In this document: positions 877 through 11,498 of the stretch, one piece after another
Layout: each line of letters starts with the position of its first letter
Position numbering within the stretch: the stretch's first letter is position 1
Program-made: the position numbers and the translations under genes
From: an uncultured Pseudomonadota bacterium
GTDB lineage: Bacteria > Pseudomonadota > Gammaproteobacteria > Burkholderiales > Rhodocyclaceae
Assembly: GCA_903951825.1 (NCBI GenBank)
Contig: CAJBDJ010000045.1
Span: 1 to 64,000, forward strand
Length of the DNA stretch: 64,000 nucleotides
Reading direction: 5' to 3'
The notes under the pieces: model-generated
The model's database searches: none
What the model saw: only the letters and a program-made list of their open reading frames with translations
What the model was told of the DNA's origin: nothing

Positions 877-968
877 CGGTCACGTTCAGCGCGAAATCGC
901 GGTCACGCTTTCGTGAAACGACGGTCACGCTTCGGCGAAATCACCGGTCACGATGCCGCGAAATACGC
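877..968. repeat. Four contiguous ~22-24 bp degenerate repeats (CGGTCACGnTTCGGCGAAATCAC), IS terminus remnant
   Basis: Units start at 877, 900, 922 and 945, each beginning CGGTCACG and containing (C)GAAA or GTGAAA; ends in GCGAAATACGCA, resembling IS21-family termini. Confidence 0.6.
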
Positions 969-1015: not shown

Positions 1016-1023
1016 CATTTTTC
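1016..1023. repeat. Target site duplication, left copy (CATTTTTC)
   Basis: Identical to 3507-3514; 8 bp is the duplication length expected for ISL3. Confidence 0.9.
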
Positions 1024-1098
1024 GGGTATCCGATTTTCGTGATTGAAAACCCATGCCATCAAGCCGCTTGAAAGTTAATAATAAAGCGTGTTGGGTGA

Positions 1099-1127
1099 TT
1101 GACGCTTACAGGGTGTATTGCTACCAT
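1099..1127 (+). promoter_or_regulatory. Candidate sigma70 promoter for the Fic passenger gene (TTGACG-N17-TACCAT)
   Basis: Near-consensus -35 with 17-bp spacer and 4/6 -10 match, 35 bp before ATG 1163. Confidence 0.4.
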
Positions 1128-1162
1128 AAAGCCGTGTTCAATGATTGGTGGGGCGCGACAAC

Positions 1163-1963
1163 ATGACTCCGTTTGATGTTCTTGGTTTCCGATGGGACAG
1201 GTCGGCAGTGCCGACTTCCATTCCGTCTCACTCGATGGAACGAGTCTGCTTCCGCTTCCACAAAATGCTACCGGAGTTCGTGTGGGATGCCTCTGTGCTC
1301 GAAGGCAATCCTTTCACCTTCCCGGAGGTCAAGACCCTGCTGGATGGCGTGACCGTCGGCGGGCGGAAGATTTCCGATCAGGAACAAGTCCTGAATCTGG
1401 CTGAAAGCTCCAAGCGCCTACTGGCGATGGTCAAGAGCGGCCAGTTCTCCCTCACAAAGACCGTGTTCATCGAACTGAATGGCATCGTCGCTCGCAAGGA
1501 AGCCTTGGAATGGGGCGTGTTCCGTGGCGAAGGTTTGGAAAAGAACTACACCCCGGACGTGGGTCTTGGTGAGCGCGGGCGTTATACCCCGCTGCCGACG
1601 CTGCCCGGCGCACCGGAGCTAAACCGGGTGTTCAGTGAGGGCGTTTCAACTCTGCAAGAGTGCGAGCCGTTCGAACGGGCTACAGCCTTCTTCCTGTTTG
1701 GTGCTTTGCAGCAGTTCTTCTTCGACGGAAACAAGCGCACGTCGCGTTTCATGATGAACGGCGTGCTCATGTCGCACGGCATCGACGCGATCAGTGTGCC
1801 CGCTGCCAAGGCGCAGGAGTTCAACGAAAAGATGGTGCGCTTCTATCTCTCGAAGGATGCCACGGAGATGATGGATTTCCTTGCCGGGTGCCACCCGGAA
1901 TCGGAGGCGATCCTACCTCCGCCAGAGGTAGATCGTAGCCACGACAGCGGAGTGGGGCCGTAA
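1163..1963 (+). CDS. Fic family protein (IS passenger), with noncanonical QFFFDGNKR motif
   Basis: FVWDASVLEGNPFTFPEV (N-terminal alpha-inhibitory-like segment) and ALQQFFFDGNKRTSRFMMNG (Fic core); ATG 1163 preferred to TTG 1145. Confidence 0.85.
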   Translation: MTPFDVLGFRWDRSAVPTSIPSHSMERVCFRFHKMLPEFVWDASVLEGNPFTFPEVKTLLDGVTVGGRKISDQEQVLNLAESSKRLLAMVKSGQFSLTKTVFIELNGIVARKEALEWGVFRGEGLEKNYTPDVGLGERGRYTPLPTLPGAPELNRVFSEGVSTLQECEPFERATAFFLFGALQQFFFDGNKRTSRFMMNGVLMSHGIDAISVPAAKAQEFNEKMVRFYLSKDATEMMDFLAGCHPESEAILPPPEVDRSHDSGVGP

Positions 1964-2060
1964 TCATGCAATGGATCAAGCTGACTACTTCCATGAAATC
2001 GACCACGGCACGGCAGAAGATCGGATCGTGTTTGGCTCCCGTTCGGTGGAGCCATGATTC

Positions 2061-3476
2061 ATGCCTGCCAACATCCTAAATCTCCCCTGCTACAAGGTTC
2101 TCGGCATCCAAGAGAACGAGCATGACTATCACATTGAGGTCGAGACAACCGAGGTGCCAGCCGCCTGTCCGCACTGCCAGTCCAGCAGCCTAGTCGGCTT
2201 TGGTCGCCGGGAACAGATGGTCAAAGACCTGCCGAGGCACGGACGGCGTGTTGGCCTCTATATCGACACCCGTCGCTATCAGTGCCGGGGCTGCGGCAAG
2301 ACGTTCTATGAGGCGTTACCGGAGATGGACGAAAAACGCTTGATGACCAAGCGGCTTGCGCAATGGATGGGCAAGCAGGCCATCAAGCGGACTTTCTCCA
2401 GCATCGCCGAAGAAGTCGGTTGCACTGAATTCACAGTCCGGGCAGTATTCAATGACTACGTGAGTGACCTTAAGAAGACGATCCGCTTCGAGACGCCGAA
2501 GTGGATGGGGATCGACGAAATCCACCTGATCAAGCCCCGTGGCGTCATCGCAAACATCCAGAACAACACCATCGTTGAACTTCTGCCGAACCGCAATAAA
2601 GACACTGTGGTGCGCTTCCTGCACTATCTGGATGGCAAAGACCGCATCCAGTATGTGGCGATGGATATGTGGACGCCCTATCGGGATGCCGTCCGAGCCG
2701 TTATCCCGCAGGCCGAGATCGTGGTGGATAAGTTCCACGTTGTTCGCATGGCGAATGATGCGATGGAGCGCGTCAGAAAAAGTTTGCGTGAGTCGCTGAC
2801 ACCAAAGCAGCGTCGGGGTCTGATGCACGACCGATTTGTGTTGCTCAAGCGCGAGCGTGATCTGAATGACAAGGAACGGCTGAACCTCGAGGGCTGGACG
2901 AAGAACTACCCTGAACTTGGCGAAGCCTACCGGCTCAAGGAACAGTTCTTCGGTATCTACGATGCCGAGTCGCCGGATGAGGCGCAGGCCAAATTCATCC
3001 AGTGGCAGAACAGCATTCCGTCCGAGATTACAGATGCTTTCGCTGACATCGAGCGTGCGTGGGGTAACTGGACGATGCCGATCCTCAACTACTTCAATCA
3101 TCCCGTCACCAATGCCTATACCGAGAGCTTGAACAGCCTGATTCGCGTCATGAATCGGCTTGGCCGGGGATACTCGTTCGAGGCGCTGCGGGCAAAGATT
3201 CTATTTGCGGAAGGGGTACACAAACACAAGCTGTCACGGCCCAAATTCGAGCGTAAGGAAAGACGGCAGGCCGAACCTGAGCCGGTGATGATGTATGGAC
3301 TACCCGGCAACTTCAAGAACTTCGAGATGGGGGATTCGTTTGCTCGCATGGCACCCAAACCGGCACCTGAACCGAAGCCCTATATCCAGAAATCAACAGA
3401 ATCGGAAAAGCAGGAGAAGAACTACGGAGCCGACATTTCAACACTCATTCGGATGATAGAAAACGGGGAGCTATGA
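2061..3476 (+). CDS. ISL3 family transposase
   Basis: N-terminal CPHC...CRGC zinc ribbon; DDE-type core (MGIDEIHL, VAMDMWTPYRDAV, NAYTESLNSLIR). Confidence 0.93.
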   Translation: MPANILNLPCYKVLGIQENEHDYHIEVETTEVPAACPHCQSSSLVGFGRREQMVKDLPRHGRRVGLYIDTRRYQCRGCGKTFYEALPEMDEKRLMTKRLAQWMGKQAIKRTFSSIAEEVGCTEFTVRAVFNDYVSDLKKTIRFETPKWMGIDEIHLIKPRGVIANIQNNTIVELLPNRNKDTVVRFLHYLDGKDRIQYVAMDMWTPYRDAVRAVIPQAEIVVDKFHVVRMANDAMERVRKSLRESLTPKQRRGLMHDRFVLLKRERDLNDKERLNLEGWTKNYPELGEAYRLKEQFFGIYDAESPDEAQAKFIQWQNSIPSEITDAFADIERAWGNWTMPILNYFNHPVTNAYTESLNSLIRVMNRLGRGYSFEALRAKILFAEGVHKHKLSRPKFERKERRQAEPEPVMMYGLPGNFKNFEMGDSFARMAPKPAPEPKPYIQKSTESEKQEKNYGADISTLIRMIENGEL

Positions 3477-3506
3477 ACCCATTTCAATCACGAAAATCAG
3501 ATACCC

Positions 3507-3514
3507 CATTTTTC
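3507..3514. repeat. Target site duplication, right copy (CATTTTTC)
   Basis: Identical to 1016-1023. Confidence 0.9.
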
Positions 3515-3729
3515 TTATTGCTCCGGCCCGATGAAGTCTTAAGCGGCATACTTAACACGCCGATCCTGGAAGTAGCTCAAACGCGCTCAGGATTTTGCTC
3601 CAGCATCATCATATGAGCGCTGGTTGCGTCGCGTAATTTGGCTTTGGTGCGAAACCTCACTCAAAGGTGAGCAAGGTATGGCGGTGTTGCACCACTTTGC
3701 GAAGCTCACTTCACTGGTCTTTGGCCGCC

Positions 3730-8031: not shown

Positions 8032-8889
8032 ATGTTTCTCATCATCGGTTATGTGATTATCCTTGCATCTGCTCTTGGGACTTACGCGGTTCACGGCAGT
8101 CTTCTGGCGCTGTGGGTTCCCCTGGAGTACGTGGCGATTATTGGGTTGACGATTGGCTACTTTGTTGCGGCGAACAACATCGGCATCATCAAGGCTACCG
8201 TTGGAGCTTTGCCCGGGGTGTTGAAGGGTTCAAAATTCAACAAGGCTTATTACGTCGACGCATTGGCGATGCTGTTTGAAATCCTCGGCAAAGTCCGTAA
8301 AGAGGGTCTGATGTCGATTGAGGGAGATATTGAGGATCCTGATTCGAGCCCGATTTTCAGCAAGTATGCAAACCTGGTTCATGATCACCATGTGATGGAA
8401 TTCACTACCGATTACCTGCGCATGATGGTTGGCGGTAACTTGAATACGGTCGAAATCGAGAGCTTGATGGATGTTGAGCTGGACTCCCATCACCATGAAG
8501 CTGAAGAGCCTGGTCACGTGGTCTCCAATGTCGCTGGTGCAGTACCTGCCTTCGGGATCGTTGTGGCGGTCATGGGAGTTGTTAACGTAATGGGTTCGGT
8601 AGGCAGTCCACCTGCGGTGTTGGGAAAAATGATTGGAGGCGCCCTGGTGGGCACTTTTCTTGGAATTTTGATTGCTTATGGCTTTGTTGAGCCGGTTGCC
8701 AAACTGCTCGAGCAGAAGGCCAAGGAAAGTGGAAAGATTTACCAGTTGATCAAAATGGTGCTACTCGCGTCGATGTCGGGATATGCGCCGGCGGTAGCCG
8801 TGGAGTTTGGACGCAAGACACTCGATTCACATGTGCGCCCCAGTTTTCGCGAGTTGGAGGAAGACTTGAAGGCGCGTAAAGGTAAGTGA
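8032..8889 (+). CDS. motA: Flagellar motor stator protein MotA
   Basis: Full-length MotA-like sequence, next to motB. Confidence 0.95.
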   Translation: MFLIIGYVIILASALGTYAVHGSLLALWVPLEYVAIIGLTIGYFVAANNIGIIKATVGALPGVLKGSKFNKAYYVDALAMLFEILGKVRKEGLMSIEGDIEDPDSSPIFSKYANLVHDHHVMEFTTDYLRMMVGGNLNTVEIESLMDVELDSHHHEAEEPGHVVSNVAGAVPAFGIVVAVMGVVNVMGSVGSPPAVLGKMIGGALVGTFLGILIAYGFVEPVAKLLEQKAKESGKIYQLIKMVLLASMSGYAPAVAVEFGRKTLDSHVRPSFRELEEDLKARKGK

Positions 8890-8917
8890 CTTCGTTATCT
8901 AACACTTTGTTACCGAA

Positions 8918-9865
8918 ATGAGCGACGACTCCACACGCCCAATTGTCATCAAGCGCAAGAAAGTTGTTGCGGGCGGTGCACATGGTGGCGCTTGGAAAAT
9001 CGCTTACGCCGATTTTGTTACGGCGATGATGGCTTTTTTTCTGCTGATGTGGCTTTTGGGGTCGACTGCCAAAGGGGATTTGTCGGGTATAGCAAGTTAT
9101 TTTCAGAATCCGGTCAAGGTTGCTATGGCAGGTGGAAGCGGTTCAGGTGATGCCACAAGCGTACTGCAGGGTGGGGGGAAGGATCTCACGCGGCAATACG
9201 GGCAAGTCAAGCAAGGTGATGTCGAGAAAAAGAAAGAAACCTCATTCTCAAAAGAAGCGCAAGCTGAGTTTCGTCGAAAAGAAAAACAGGCACTCGAAGC
9301 ATTGAAGGCCGACATCGAAAAAATGATTGAAAGTACGCCGCAGTTAGCTCAATTCAAAAGACAGATGCTACTCGACATTACTTCAGAGGGGCTGCGTATA
9401 CAGATTGTCGACGAGCAAAATCGACCGATGTTTGACTCCAGCAGCGCCGACCTTAAACCTTACACGAAAGAAATACTGCGCCAGATTGGTAGCTCGCTGA
9501 ATGGAGTCAGTAATCGTATCAGTTTGGCGGGGCACACCGACGCAGCTCAGTTCGCCGATGGTGAGCGTGGATTCTCAAATTGGGAGTTATCGGCTAATCG
9601 CGCAAATGCTTCGCGACGCGAGTTGATTGCCGGCGGGCTTAATGACGCTAAAATAATGCGTATCGTTGGTCTTGCCTCGACGGTACTGTTCGACAAGAAC
9701 GATCCGTTGAGCTCGATAAATCGAAGGATCAGTATCGTCGTTCTGAATCAAAAAACTGAGCAAGCCATCCTTCAGGATGAGAGATCGGAAACAGAAGTTG
9801 ATGGGGAGGGTGGGTTGCAAGAGGCACTGCAAATTCCTCCTGCCAACAAGGGAACGGCGGGTTAA
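8918..9865 (+). CDS. motB: Flagellar motor protein MotB
   Basis: [22 protein letters not shown] plus OmpA-like domain. Confidence 0.95.
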
Positions 9866-9893
9866 TTGGGTAGTGAGCGAGGGGACAGAGAAA

Positions 9894-11114
9894 ATGGGCA
9901 ACAATAAAGGCCTGATTTGGGTTGGCGCTGGATGGTCAGCGTTGATCTTGGCTGTCCTGGTCACAATTGAGCCCTCGGCGCGCTCTGGAACCATTCTTTT
10001 TGCGTTGGCCTTGCTAATTATCGGTTTGCTGGTGTTAGTCAGCTTTCAGGGCGGAAGTTCAACGGGCAGCGAGTCCGGGCAACCGAATCCGCTCGATCGC
10101 AGTGTGATTGAACACAGCAGGCAGGCAATCGTTAGGGTGTCTGGAGAGTTTTCCGAGCAAATTATCGAGATGCGCAGTGAAATAACGCGTACGCAGACTA
10201 TTTTTACTGACGCTATTGCGACTTTGATAAATAGTTTTCAGGGAATTAATAGTGAGGTTCAGCGCCAACACGCTCTTGGTCTGAAAATAATTTCAGGCTC
10301 CGGGCCGGATTCGGCGGGTGGCTTGGGGGAGTTTGAGAAATTTGCCGCAAAAACGTCGGAGACTTTGCGCCAGTTTGTCGATAGCGTCATCCAGAATTCG
10401 CGTGTCGCGATGGGGCTGGTTGAAATGACTGACCGGATATCTACACAGATGCGTGAAGTGCGTGGCCGGTTGGGTGAAATCGAGGGGATCGCCAAGCAGA
10501 CGAATCTTCTGGCTTTAAATGCCGCGATCGAAGCTGCCCGCGCGGGCGAGGCTGGACGCGGATTTGCGGTGGTGGCTGATGAGGTGCGTGACCTTTCAGG
10601 AAGAACCAACCATTTCAGCAAACAGATACGTGATGCGCTGATGACAATGCAAAGCCATGTCGAGGAGGCGGAAGGCGCAATCAATCGTATGGCAGCCCAG
10701 GACATGACTTTTGCACTGACATCAAAAAATGATGTTGAAGTTGCCATGACTGGTATTGAGGACATGAACCGGCGTACTGGTGATTCGGTAAGCGAACTCA
10801 ATTTGATTGCCGAAAAGGTTGAGATTTCTGTCAATCAAGCTGTCATGTCTTTGCAATTTCAGGATATGGTGACGCAATTACTTGGACACGTACTTCGCCG
10901 CCTCGAAATTCTTGATGAAGTGGTGGGTGACGAAAATCAAATTGCCTCGTTGCTTAGTAATACGAATGATTCGGAGAGTACTGTGCAGGCGCTTGATAGT
11001 GTGCGTGAACATGTTGATGCCCTGTCACAAAAGCTGAATGCCCTTAAACAGAAAGTTAATCACAATCCTGTCCGACAAACCGGCTATTCCAGCGGTGATG
11101 TCGAATTGTTTTGA
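9894..11114 (+). CDS. Methyl-accepting chemotaxis protein without a recognisable ligand-binding domain
   Basis: Two N-terminal TMs separated by a very short loop; MCP hairpin [28 protein letters not shown]. Confidence 0.85.
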
Positions 11115-11132
11115 TTTGCCCAAGAGGAAAAC

Positions 11133-11498
11133 ATGGCTAAAACCATTCTTGCAGTTGATGATTCTGCCTCGATCCGTCAGATGGTGTCGTTTACCCTGAA
11201 AAGTGCCGGATACGATGTGATTGAGGCAGTTGATGGTATGGACGGGCTGGAAAAGGCCAAGGGACGCAGCGTCAACCTGATCCTTACCGACCAGAACATG
11301 CCGCGTATGGATGGGCTGACCCTGATTAAAAATCTTCGTGCCATGACGCAATATGGTGCGGTTCCGATACTGATGCTGACTACTGAGTCTTCAGATGCGA
11401 TGAAGTCTCAGGGGCGAGCCGCCGGGGCAACGGGATGGTTGGTCAAACCATTCGATCCACAGAAATTGATTGAAGTCGTACGCAAGGTGATTGGCTGA
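11133..11498 (+). CDS. cheY: Chemotaxis response regulator CheY
   Basis: 121-aa stand-alone receiver; AVDDSASIRQMV, LTDQNMPRMDGL, KPF. Confidence 0.92.
   Translation: MAKTILAVDDSASIRQMVSFTLKSAGYDVIEAVDGMDGLEKAKGRSVNLILTDQNMPRMDGLTLIKNLRAMTQYGAVPILMLTTESSDAMKSQGRAAGATGWLVKPFDPQKLIEVVRKVIG

Follow-up and report, generated by a model that had tools for sequence, protein, structure and literature searches.

A complete ISL3-type transposon with a Fic-Q passenger, and the toxin-antitoxin, restriction-modification and Fic cargo of its clade

The window (the whole stretch of 64,000 nucleotides that was analysed) contains a complete transposon of the ISL3 type, 2,483 bp long, in which a fic gene lies upstream of the transposase gene (tnp). 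It belongs to a clade with the common order left end, promoter with repeats resembling the terminal inverted repeats (TIRs), cargo, transposase and right end, and we lean towards the reading that in this clade the transposase would repress the operon and the cargo would stabilise the element. The features of the window element are as follows.

1016..1023, no strand: left copy of the target duplication, CATTTTTC, 8 bp
1024..1048, + strand: terminal inverted repeat of the left side (IRL); ends of similar sequence occur in L002, L003, L004 and others
1087..1102, + strand: TIR-like repeat A, CGTGTTGGGTGATTGA, which overlaps the -35 and is a candidate operator for the transposase; found at the same place throughout the FicQ clade
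1099..1127, + strand: sigma-70-like promoter TTGACG-17-TACCAT at element nt 76; position common to many elements with differing cargo
1132..1148, + strand: TIR-like repeat B, CCGTGTTCAATGATTGG, just past the -10
1163..1963, + strand: fic cargo gene, 266 aa; Gln-184 replaces the catalytic His, Glu-47 of the inhibitory helix is conserved
1961..1985, + strand: first part of the scar, with the stop of fic and the opening codons (MQWIKLT) of a DUF551 gene that was lost; 25 bp, 100% identical to L025 and L030
1981..2060, + strand: second part of the scar, from the 3' end of a distal cargo gene that was lost (L028 82%, L025 80%, L031 78%)
2061..3476, + strand: ISL3-family DDE transposase, 471 aa (PF01610, NF033550)
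3482..3506, - strand: right terminal inverted repeat (IRR), pairing with IRL
3507..3514, no strand: right copy of the target duplication, CATTTTTC, 8 bp, a perfect match to the left copy

Ends, mobility and deletion scar of the window element

Both ends of the element can be set at base level: IRL and IRR are complementary at 24 of 25 nt (96%) and are bounded by the perfect 8-bp duplication CATTTTTC. The preliminary description of the window had given these ends, together with fic at 1163-1963 and the ISL3 transposase at 2061-3476, and all of these positions are confirmed. The transposase covers the full PF01610 profile (1-240 of 240; 8e-63, 212.9 bits), scores 293 bits against NCBIfam transpos_ISL3 (NF033550; cut-off 180) and also has the ISL3 zinc ribbon and the ISL3 helix-turn-helix. 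The DDE transposase domain, the terminal inverted repeats and the 8-bp duplication place the element in the ISL3 family, and its extra genes inside the ends, which are kept between copies, are as in ISL3 elements with passengers.

Chance as the source of this architecture is excluded, since independent genomes have it too, with ends that are similar and duplications that differ. Such ends and duplications were found in L002, L003, L004, L025, L027 and L031, and across elements 20 different target duplications were counted in 20 elements (A+T 78%). The element of the Thauera plasmid pTX1 is flanked by ATTTTACC and that of the Acidovorax plasmid pEP1 by GAGGAAAG, both with a Fic identity of 93%; the 4.42-kb form of pTX1 is moreover 99.9% identical to that of metagenomic contig L112, which sits at a third site with the duplication ATCAGCGA. 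From relatives at differing sites and a near-identical copy at three sites we infer that elements of the window type are mobile. A recent insertion, suggested earlier from the intact duplication and open reading frames, is plausible: ends and duplication are intact, the element has a single copy in its own genome, and the transposase was not found in the 5 congeneric genomes searched.

When the two flanks were joined and searched in 200 genomes of the family, no uninterrupted (empty) site was found, because both flanks are repeats. The right flank (window 3516-3653) is a 99% repeat elsewhere in the same genome (G000:C27:46277-46415) and has an 87% match in a congeneric genome. On the left, window 833-970 matches sequence that many of the family's genomes contain in multiple copies; this stretch resembles the terminal part of an IS21-like element, and inside it (window 900-963) lie three copies of a CGGTCACG(C/A)... 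repeat at a spacing of 22-23 bp. An Rfam scan of the window gave no match.

The earlier description of the element as a complete ISL3 transposon is supported. It is not in its ancestral form, as other cargo has been deleted. Aligned with blastn to the pTX1 element it yields two blocks, and the break falls between fic and tnp, where the window has a gap of 97 bp. The last 80 bp of this gap form the second part of the scar, and the two parts overlap by 5 bp (CTGAC), likely a microhomology junction. Reading the scar through as a real gene was rejected, since it holds two gene fragments in different frames. Judged by these alignments, the window copy is an internal-deletion derivative that has lost other cargo, and not the ancestral form. 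Other short gaps between fic and tnp occur in L026 and L029, and fic is kept in all three; the small cargo genes of L004, DUF551 included, encode unassigned proteins and are present in some elements but missing from others (the small L004 open reading frames have at most weak and unrelated Pfam matches, DUF551 excepted). The scar, like the promoter and TIR-like repeats at 1087-1148, was absent from the preliminary description.

Fic-Q as a conserved passenger

The fic gene is present in at least 11 related elements whose ends are similar and whose duplications differ, including those of pTX1, pEP1, L025-L031 and L100 (the L handles being genome contigs). The gene thus does travel in homologous elements that have the same ends, and fic is, as had been proposed, a passenger and not a chance neighbour. 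Median dN/dS (45 pairs from ten elements) amounts to 0.077 for fic and 0.069 for tnp, and no copy contains an internal stop; on these values fic is under strong purifying selection (dN/dS about 0.08). Taken over the elements compared, these data show fic to be a stable, selected cargo of its subclade. In L002 the left end is followed by the first 48 fic codons (87% identity over aa 1-48) with the rest of the gene gone, then by a 1,090-residue Type IIG restriction-modification (R-M) enzyme and a 90% identical transposase.

The fic start at 1163 is common to the relatives (ATG, GTG in one); an alternative TTG lies upstream at 1145. Against Pfam the window Fic scores 22.7 bits, just below the gathering threshold of 24. 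By sequence it matches FICD in the PDB, and the top Foldseek matches of its AlphaFold model (pLDDT 76) are all Fic proteins, so that PDB matches and predicted structure identify it as a member of the Fic fold. Every homologue aligned, down to about 40% identity, has Gln (position 184) where HxFx(D/E)GNxRxxR has its catalytic His, and this Gln is invariant in alignments A2 and A3. Glu-47 is invariant in A3 and nearly so in A2, and the DGN-R core is mostly retained. Within the (S/T)xxxE(G/N) motif the Gly/Asn is mostly retained and the S/T is changed to Ala or Met (A2, A3).

In characterised Fic enzymes the His acts as general base of AMP transfer (PMC5033356, PMC9755527). Since it is Gln throughout the subfamily, we do not call Fic-Q an AMP transferase; ordinary AMP transfer by this protein is doubtful on its sequence, and the earlier designation as a post-translational modifier is not borne out. 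Compared with class II Fic proteins (FICD, CccR), Fic-Q is alike in the Fic fold, the Glu of the N-terminal inhibitory helix and the DGN-R core, but differs by Gln in place of the catalytic His and by an S/T of the inhibitory motif that is not conserved. No antitoxin gene lies beside fic in the window element, as a toxin-antitoxin module would have; an inhibitor may be built into Fic-Q itself. Our search of the literature for Fic subfamilies without the catalytic His found no paper describing the Fic-Q subfamily.

Fic homologues also occur outside terminal inverted repeats of this kind (L017, L018, L113, L019 and Citrobacter plasmids). They were considered as a refutation of the cargo status and set aside, their sites being unrelated; reading them as decayed ISL3 copies was rejected as well, with no ends or transposase near L017-L024. 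The homologue of L017 stands alone on a chromosome by urease genes and that of L019 by cellulose-synthesis genes (neighbours recognised by eye from translations), and L018 and L113 have only the fic open reading frame in common. Such homologues may point to a possible source from which a gene of this kind was captured. In phages, Fic-Q homologues were seen in two Acinetobacter records only.

Several plasmid loci are recorded here in their own right. On the Citrobacter/Buttiauxella plasmids L022 and L023 the Fic-Q homologue adjoins a DndB-like gene (L023 4496-6726) or follows a PAPS-reductase-family gene and a DGQHR gene on their downstream side (L022 886-6732), upstream of RadC/JAB and an N-6 methylase, possibly as a gene module. 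An Acinetobacter plasmid open reading frame annotated as zeta toxin family (L024 4296-5798) contains a Fic-Q-like domain (45% identity).

Cargo and left-end promoter across the clade

A single transposase-alignment scan gave 80 loci; with the window and the plasmid records, 83 full-length transposases were placed on a tree, 80 of which form one supported group. Outside it fall L097, L105 and L106 (L105 and L106 are control ISL3 elements whose ends were not delimited and which were used only for this placement). The cargo upstream of tnp is of the toxin-antitoxin, R-M/methyltransferase or Fic type in 68 of the 80 clade members, the labels coming from HMMs seeded on the same loci and cargo with no left end found being placed by proximity only; about 10 members have other genes. 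The labels include MNT_HepT (13), AbiEii (11), DUF6036 (6), VapD-like (6; this label rests on a Cas2-like Pfam match just below its cut-off) and HEPN (5), and further kinds are MNT with HepT-like_2 (2), DUF5615 (2) and zeta-like (1). Three different Fic families are represented (Fic-Q 11, a second family with KfrB 3, a third, canonical Fic 1), as are five kinds of R-M or methylase cargo (Type ISP 2, PstI-type pair 2, Type IIG 1, NotI-type pair 1, D12 methylase 1).

Both ends were delimited in 35 elements, and only L049, L069 and L081 among these are without such a cargo label. An unseeded Pfam scan of the delimited elements returned the same kinds of families in smaller numbers, the main named ones being nucleotidyltransferases, HepT, HEPN, DUF6036, methylases, Fic and restriction endonucleases. 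Labelled cargo lies on the strand of the transposase in 94 cases and on the opposite strand in 0, and the nearest labelled cargo stop is at most 40 nt from the tnp start in 27 of 71. Along the transposase tree the cargo label changes 35 times (about 26 without the 'other' class). Overall, the comparison of loci shows that the clade repeatedly swaps toxin-antitoxin, R-M and Fic cargo, in the same orientation and upstream of tnp. The flanks of the delimited elements hold scattered housekeeping genes and transposases, with one HipA_C; VapD and MNT matches are also found downstream of some clade elements.

Two further groups of elements were observed. L047 (1-6169), L051 (5176-11425) and L110 (1-3998) are long elements with a common multi-gene cargo that includes a DUF6036 gene; in L051 and L110 this cargo ends in a DUF5710 protein adjoining tnp, and in L047 the contig ends are the element ends. 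L036 and L096 (both 8181-11455) are equal-length 3,275-bp elements with Fic-KfrB, from two Betaproteobacteria and at different target sites, and represent an independent Fic capture.

Of 37 elements, 21 have a promoter resembling TTGACx-17-TATxAT that begins at element nt 65, 70, 75 or 76 (for those outside the Fic-Q clade the count is 11 of 25), against a mean of 0.5-0.6 and a maximum of 4 in dinucleotide shuffles; in 16 of the 37 it was undetected at that position. The window boxes are TTGACG at 1099 and TACCAT at 1122. A promoter scan of the window alone performed no better than chance (2 found, 1.6 expected), and we credit the window promoter because its position is common to relatives, not because of its own score. 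Across elements, repeats resembling the inner part of the TIR cover the -35 and follow the -10. Small gaps were permitted in the repeat search, and a trivial match was avoided by comparing DNA of the left end with the right TIR. In 23 representative elements the best internal repeat agreed with the right TIR of the same element at 13.4/17 positions on average, against 11.1 for swapped TIRs (0/2000 permutations), a test that is indicative and not exact since related elements have common ancestry. The window's own repeat A matches its own TIR weakly (12/17). These comparisons show that in many members the promoter keeps a constant distance to the left end and is flanked by repeats whose sequence follows that of the element's own TIR.

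Proposed mechanism, alternatives and known systems

In the mechanism that we propose, one promoter would transcribe cargo and tnp as an operon, and the transposase would bind the internal repeats as it does its own ends, repressing that operon (the comparison of elements is consistent with this). Cargo expression would then rise at low transposase, for instance when the element has just entered a new cell or has been lost, and the cargo would aid the element by putting a cost on its loss or by keeping competitors or phage out. Fic-Q would be a nucleotide-binding protein held by its N-terminal inhibitory helix, a growth-inhibiting or abortive-type effector whose chemistry would not be ordinary His-dependent AMPylation. 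Its addiction or abortive role, suggested mainly by the company that fic keeps, is the weakest step, because Fic-Q has neither the catalytic His nor an obvious antitoxin. The addiction module suggested in the preliminary description gains indirect support from bona fide toxin-antitoxin or R-M genes in the same slot of sister elements, but the window element has no separate antitoxin.

More tentatively, the ISL3 clade could be a dedicated carrier of addiction and defence genes, whose left-end promoter and TIR-like operators wire the cargo into a copy-sensing circuit, with Fic-Q as one such cargo with a new, His-independent activity; we regard this as possible, and not as the expected outcome.

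It might be argued that any gene can be picked up between left end and tnp, that the excess of toxin-antitoxin and R-M genes reflects their abundance on plasmids and other mobile DNA, and that Fic has no role for the element. Other genes do occur in some members, such as the ArsR regulator and permease of ISPst2 (PMC6305408) or the TetR gene of L049, and the turnover of DUF551 and the other small L004 genes fits as well. However, the class bias is strong and repeated (68/80), the flanks of the same elements contain mostly housekeeping genes and transposases, and fic stays under selection as other cargo disappears, which makes such hitch-hiking rather improbable.

The transposons might also carry anti-phage modules and gain by host protection, Fic-Q being a single-gene abortive-infection effector. 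Defence-carrying mobile elements gain by protecting their host, and the AbiEii, HepT, Fic and R-M families, all seen in the clade, include known defence genes. The window Fic weakly matches PADLOC candidate PDC-S04 (4e-6), and Fic-Q homologues lie near DndB-like and PAPS-reductase genes on enterobacterial plasmids. On the other hand, PDC-S04 has no more than candidate status itself, D12 or DUF6036 genes that stand alone are insufficient to show defence, and cargo abutting tnp is left unexplained; we consider defence as the purpose of the cargo unlikely.

That Fic-Q regulates the transposase directly, e.g. as a nucleotide-sensing partner, agrees with the operon-like arrangement and the long co-inheritance with the transposase subclade, but 80-90% related transposases are found without intact fic (L002, L032-L034) and Fic-Q homologues exist without ISL3 nearby, so this is very unlikely. 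The earlier idea of Fic control over transposition is not supported as written, and the sequence evidence points instead to the transposase controlling the operon.

The preferred reading, of a cargo operon repressed by its transposase, can be set beside systems already described. ISPst2 is an ISL3 element with an ArsR regulator and a permease as passengers inside its ends (PMC6305408 Table 3). Elements of the ISPst2/ISPpu12 type resemble the window element in the ISL3 transposase, GGGTATCCG-type ends (ISPst2 IRL GGGTATCCGGAATTTCTGGTTGAT), the 8-bp duplication and passengers inside the ends; the difference lies in the passengers, ArsR regulator and permease in ISPst2 against Fic in the window. 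ISAfe1, an ISL3 insertion sequence of about 1.2 kb (PMC10322971), has a transposase of the same family and is too small for passengers, from which it follows that ISL3 elements need none.

Tn3-family transposons carry several unrelated, independently acquired toxin-antitoxin families inside the transposition module (PMC7157771). They are alike in the independent acquisition of cargo and in expression possibly coupled to the transposition genes, but have another transposase family and pairs that abut the res site and resolvase (PMC7157771); the ISL3 clade, unlike the Tn3 pairs, also has R-M and Fic cargo, and no resolvase was seen in the window element. More generally, a 2025 review (PMC12548467) reports that toxin-antitoxin systems of type VII are associated with transposons or with clusters of insertion sequences. 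In the open literature, to which our search extended (subscription papers and ISfinder lay outside it), no paper ties ISL3 to Fic or to clade-wide toxin-antitoxin or R-M cargo, and TIR-like repeats at the promoter of ISL3 elements are not described. ISL3 passengers and Tn3 toxin-antitoxin pairs are thus already known, whereas ISL3 elements with Fic or with such clade-wide cargo are unreported in the literature searched.

Fic-Q represents a conserved subfamily of Fic proteins that have no catalytic histidine; its function is open to direct testing. If the reading proposed here is true, toxin-antitoxin and R-M genes would be recurrent functional components not only of Tn3 transposons but also of a second, unrelated family, and the arrangement of operators and promoter would suggest how an element can adopt and control new cargo at once. 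It would also help to explain how such genes spread to plasmids and chromosomes as small units.
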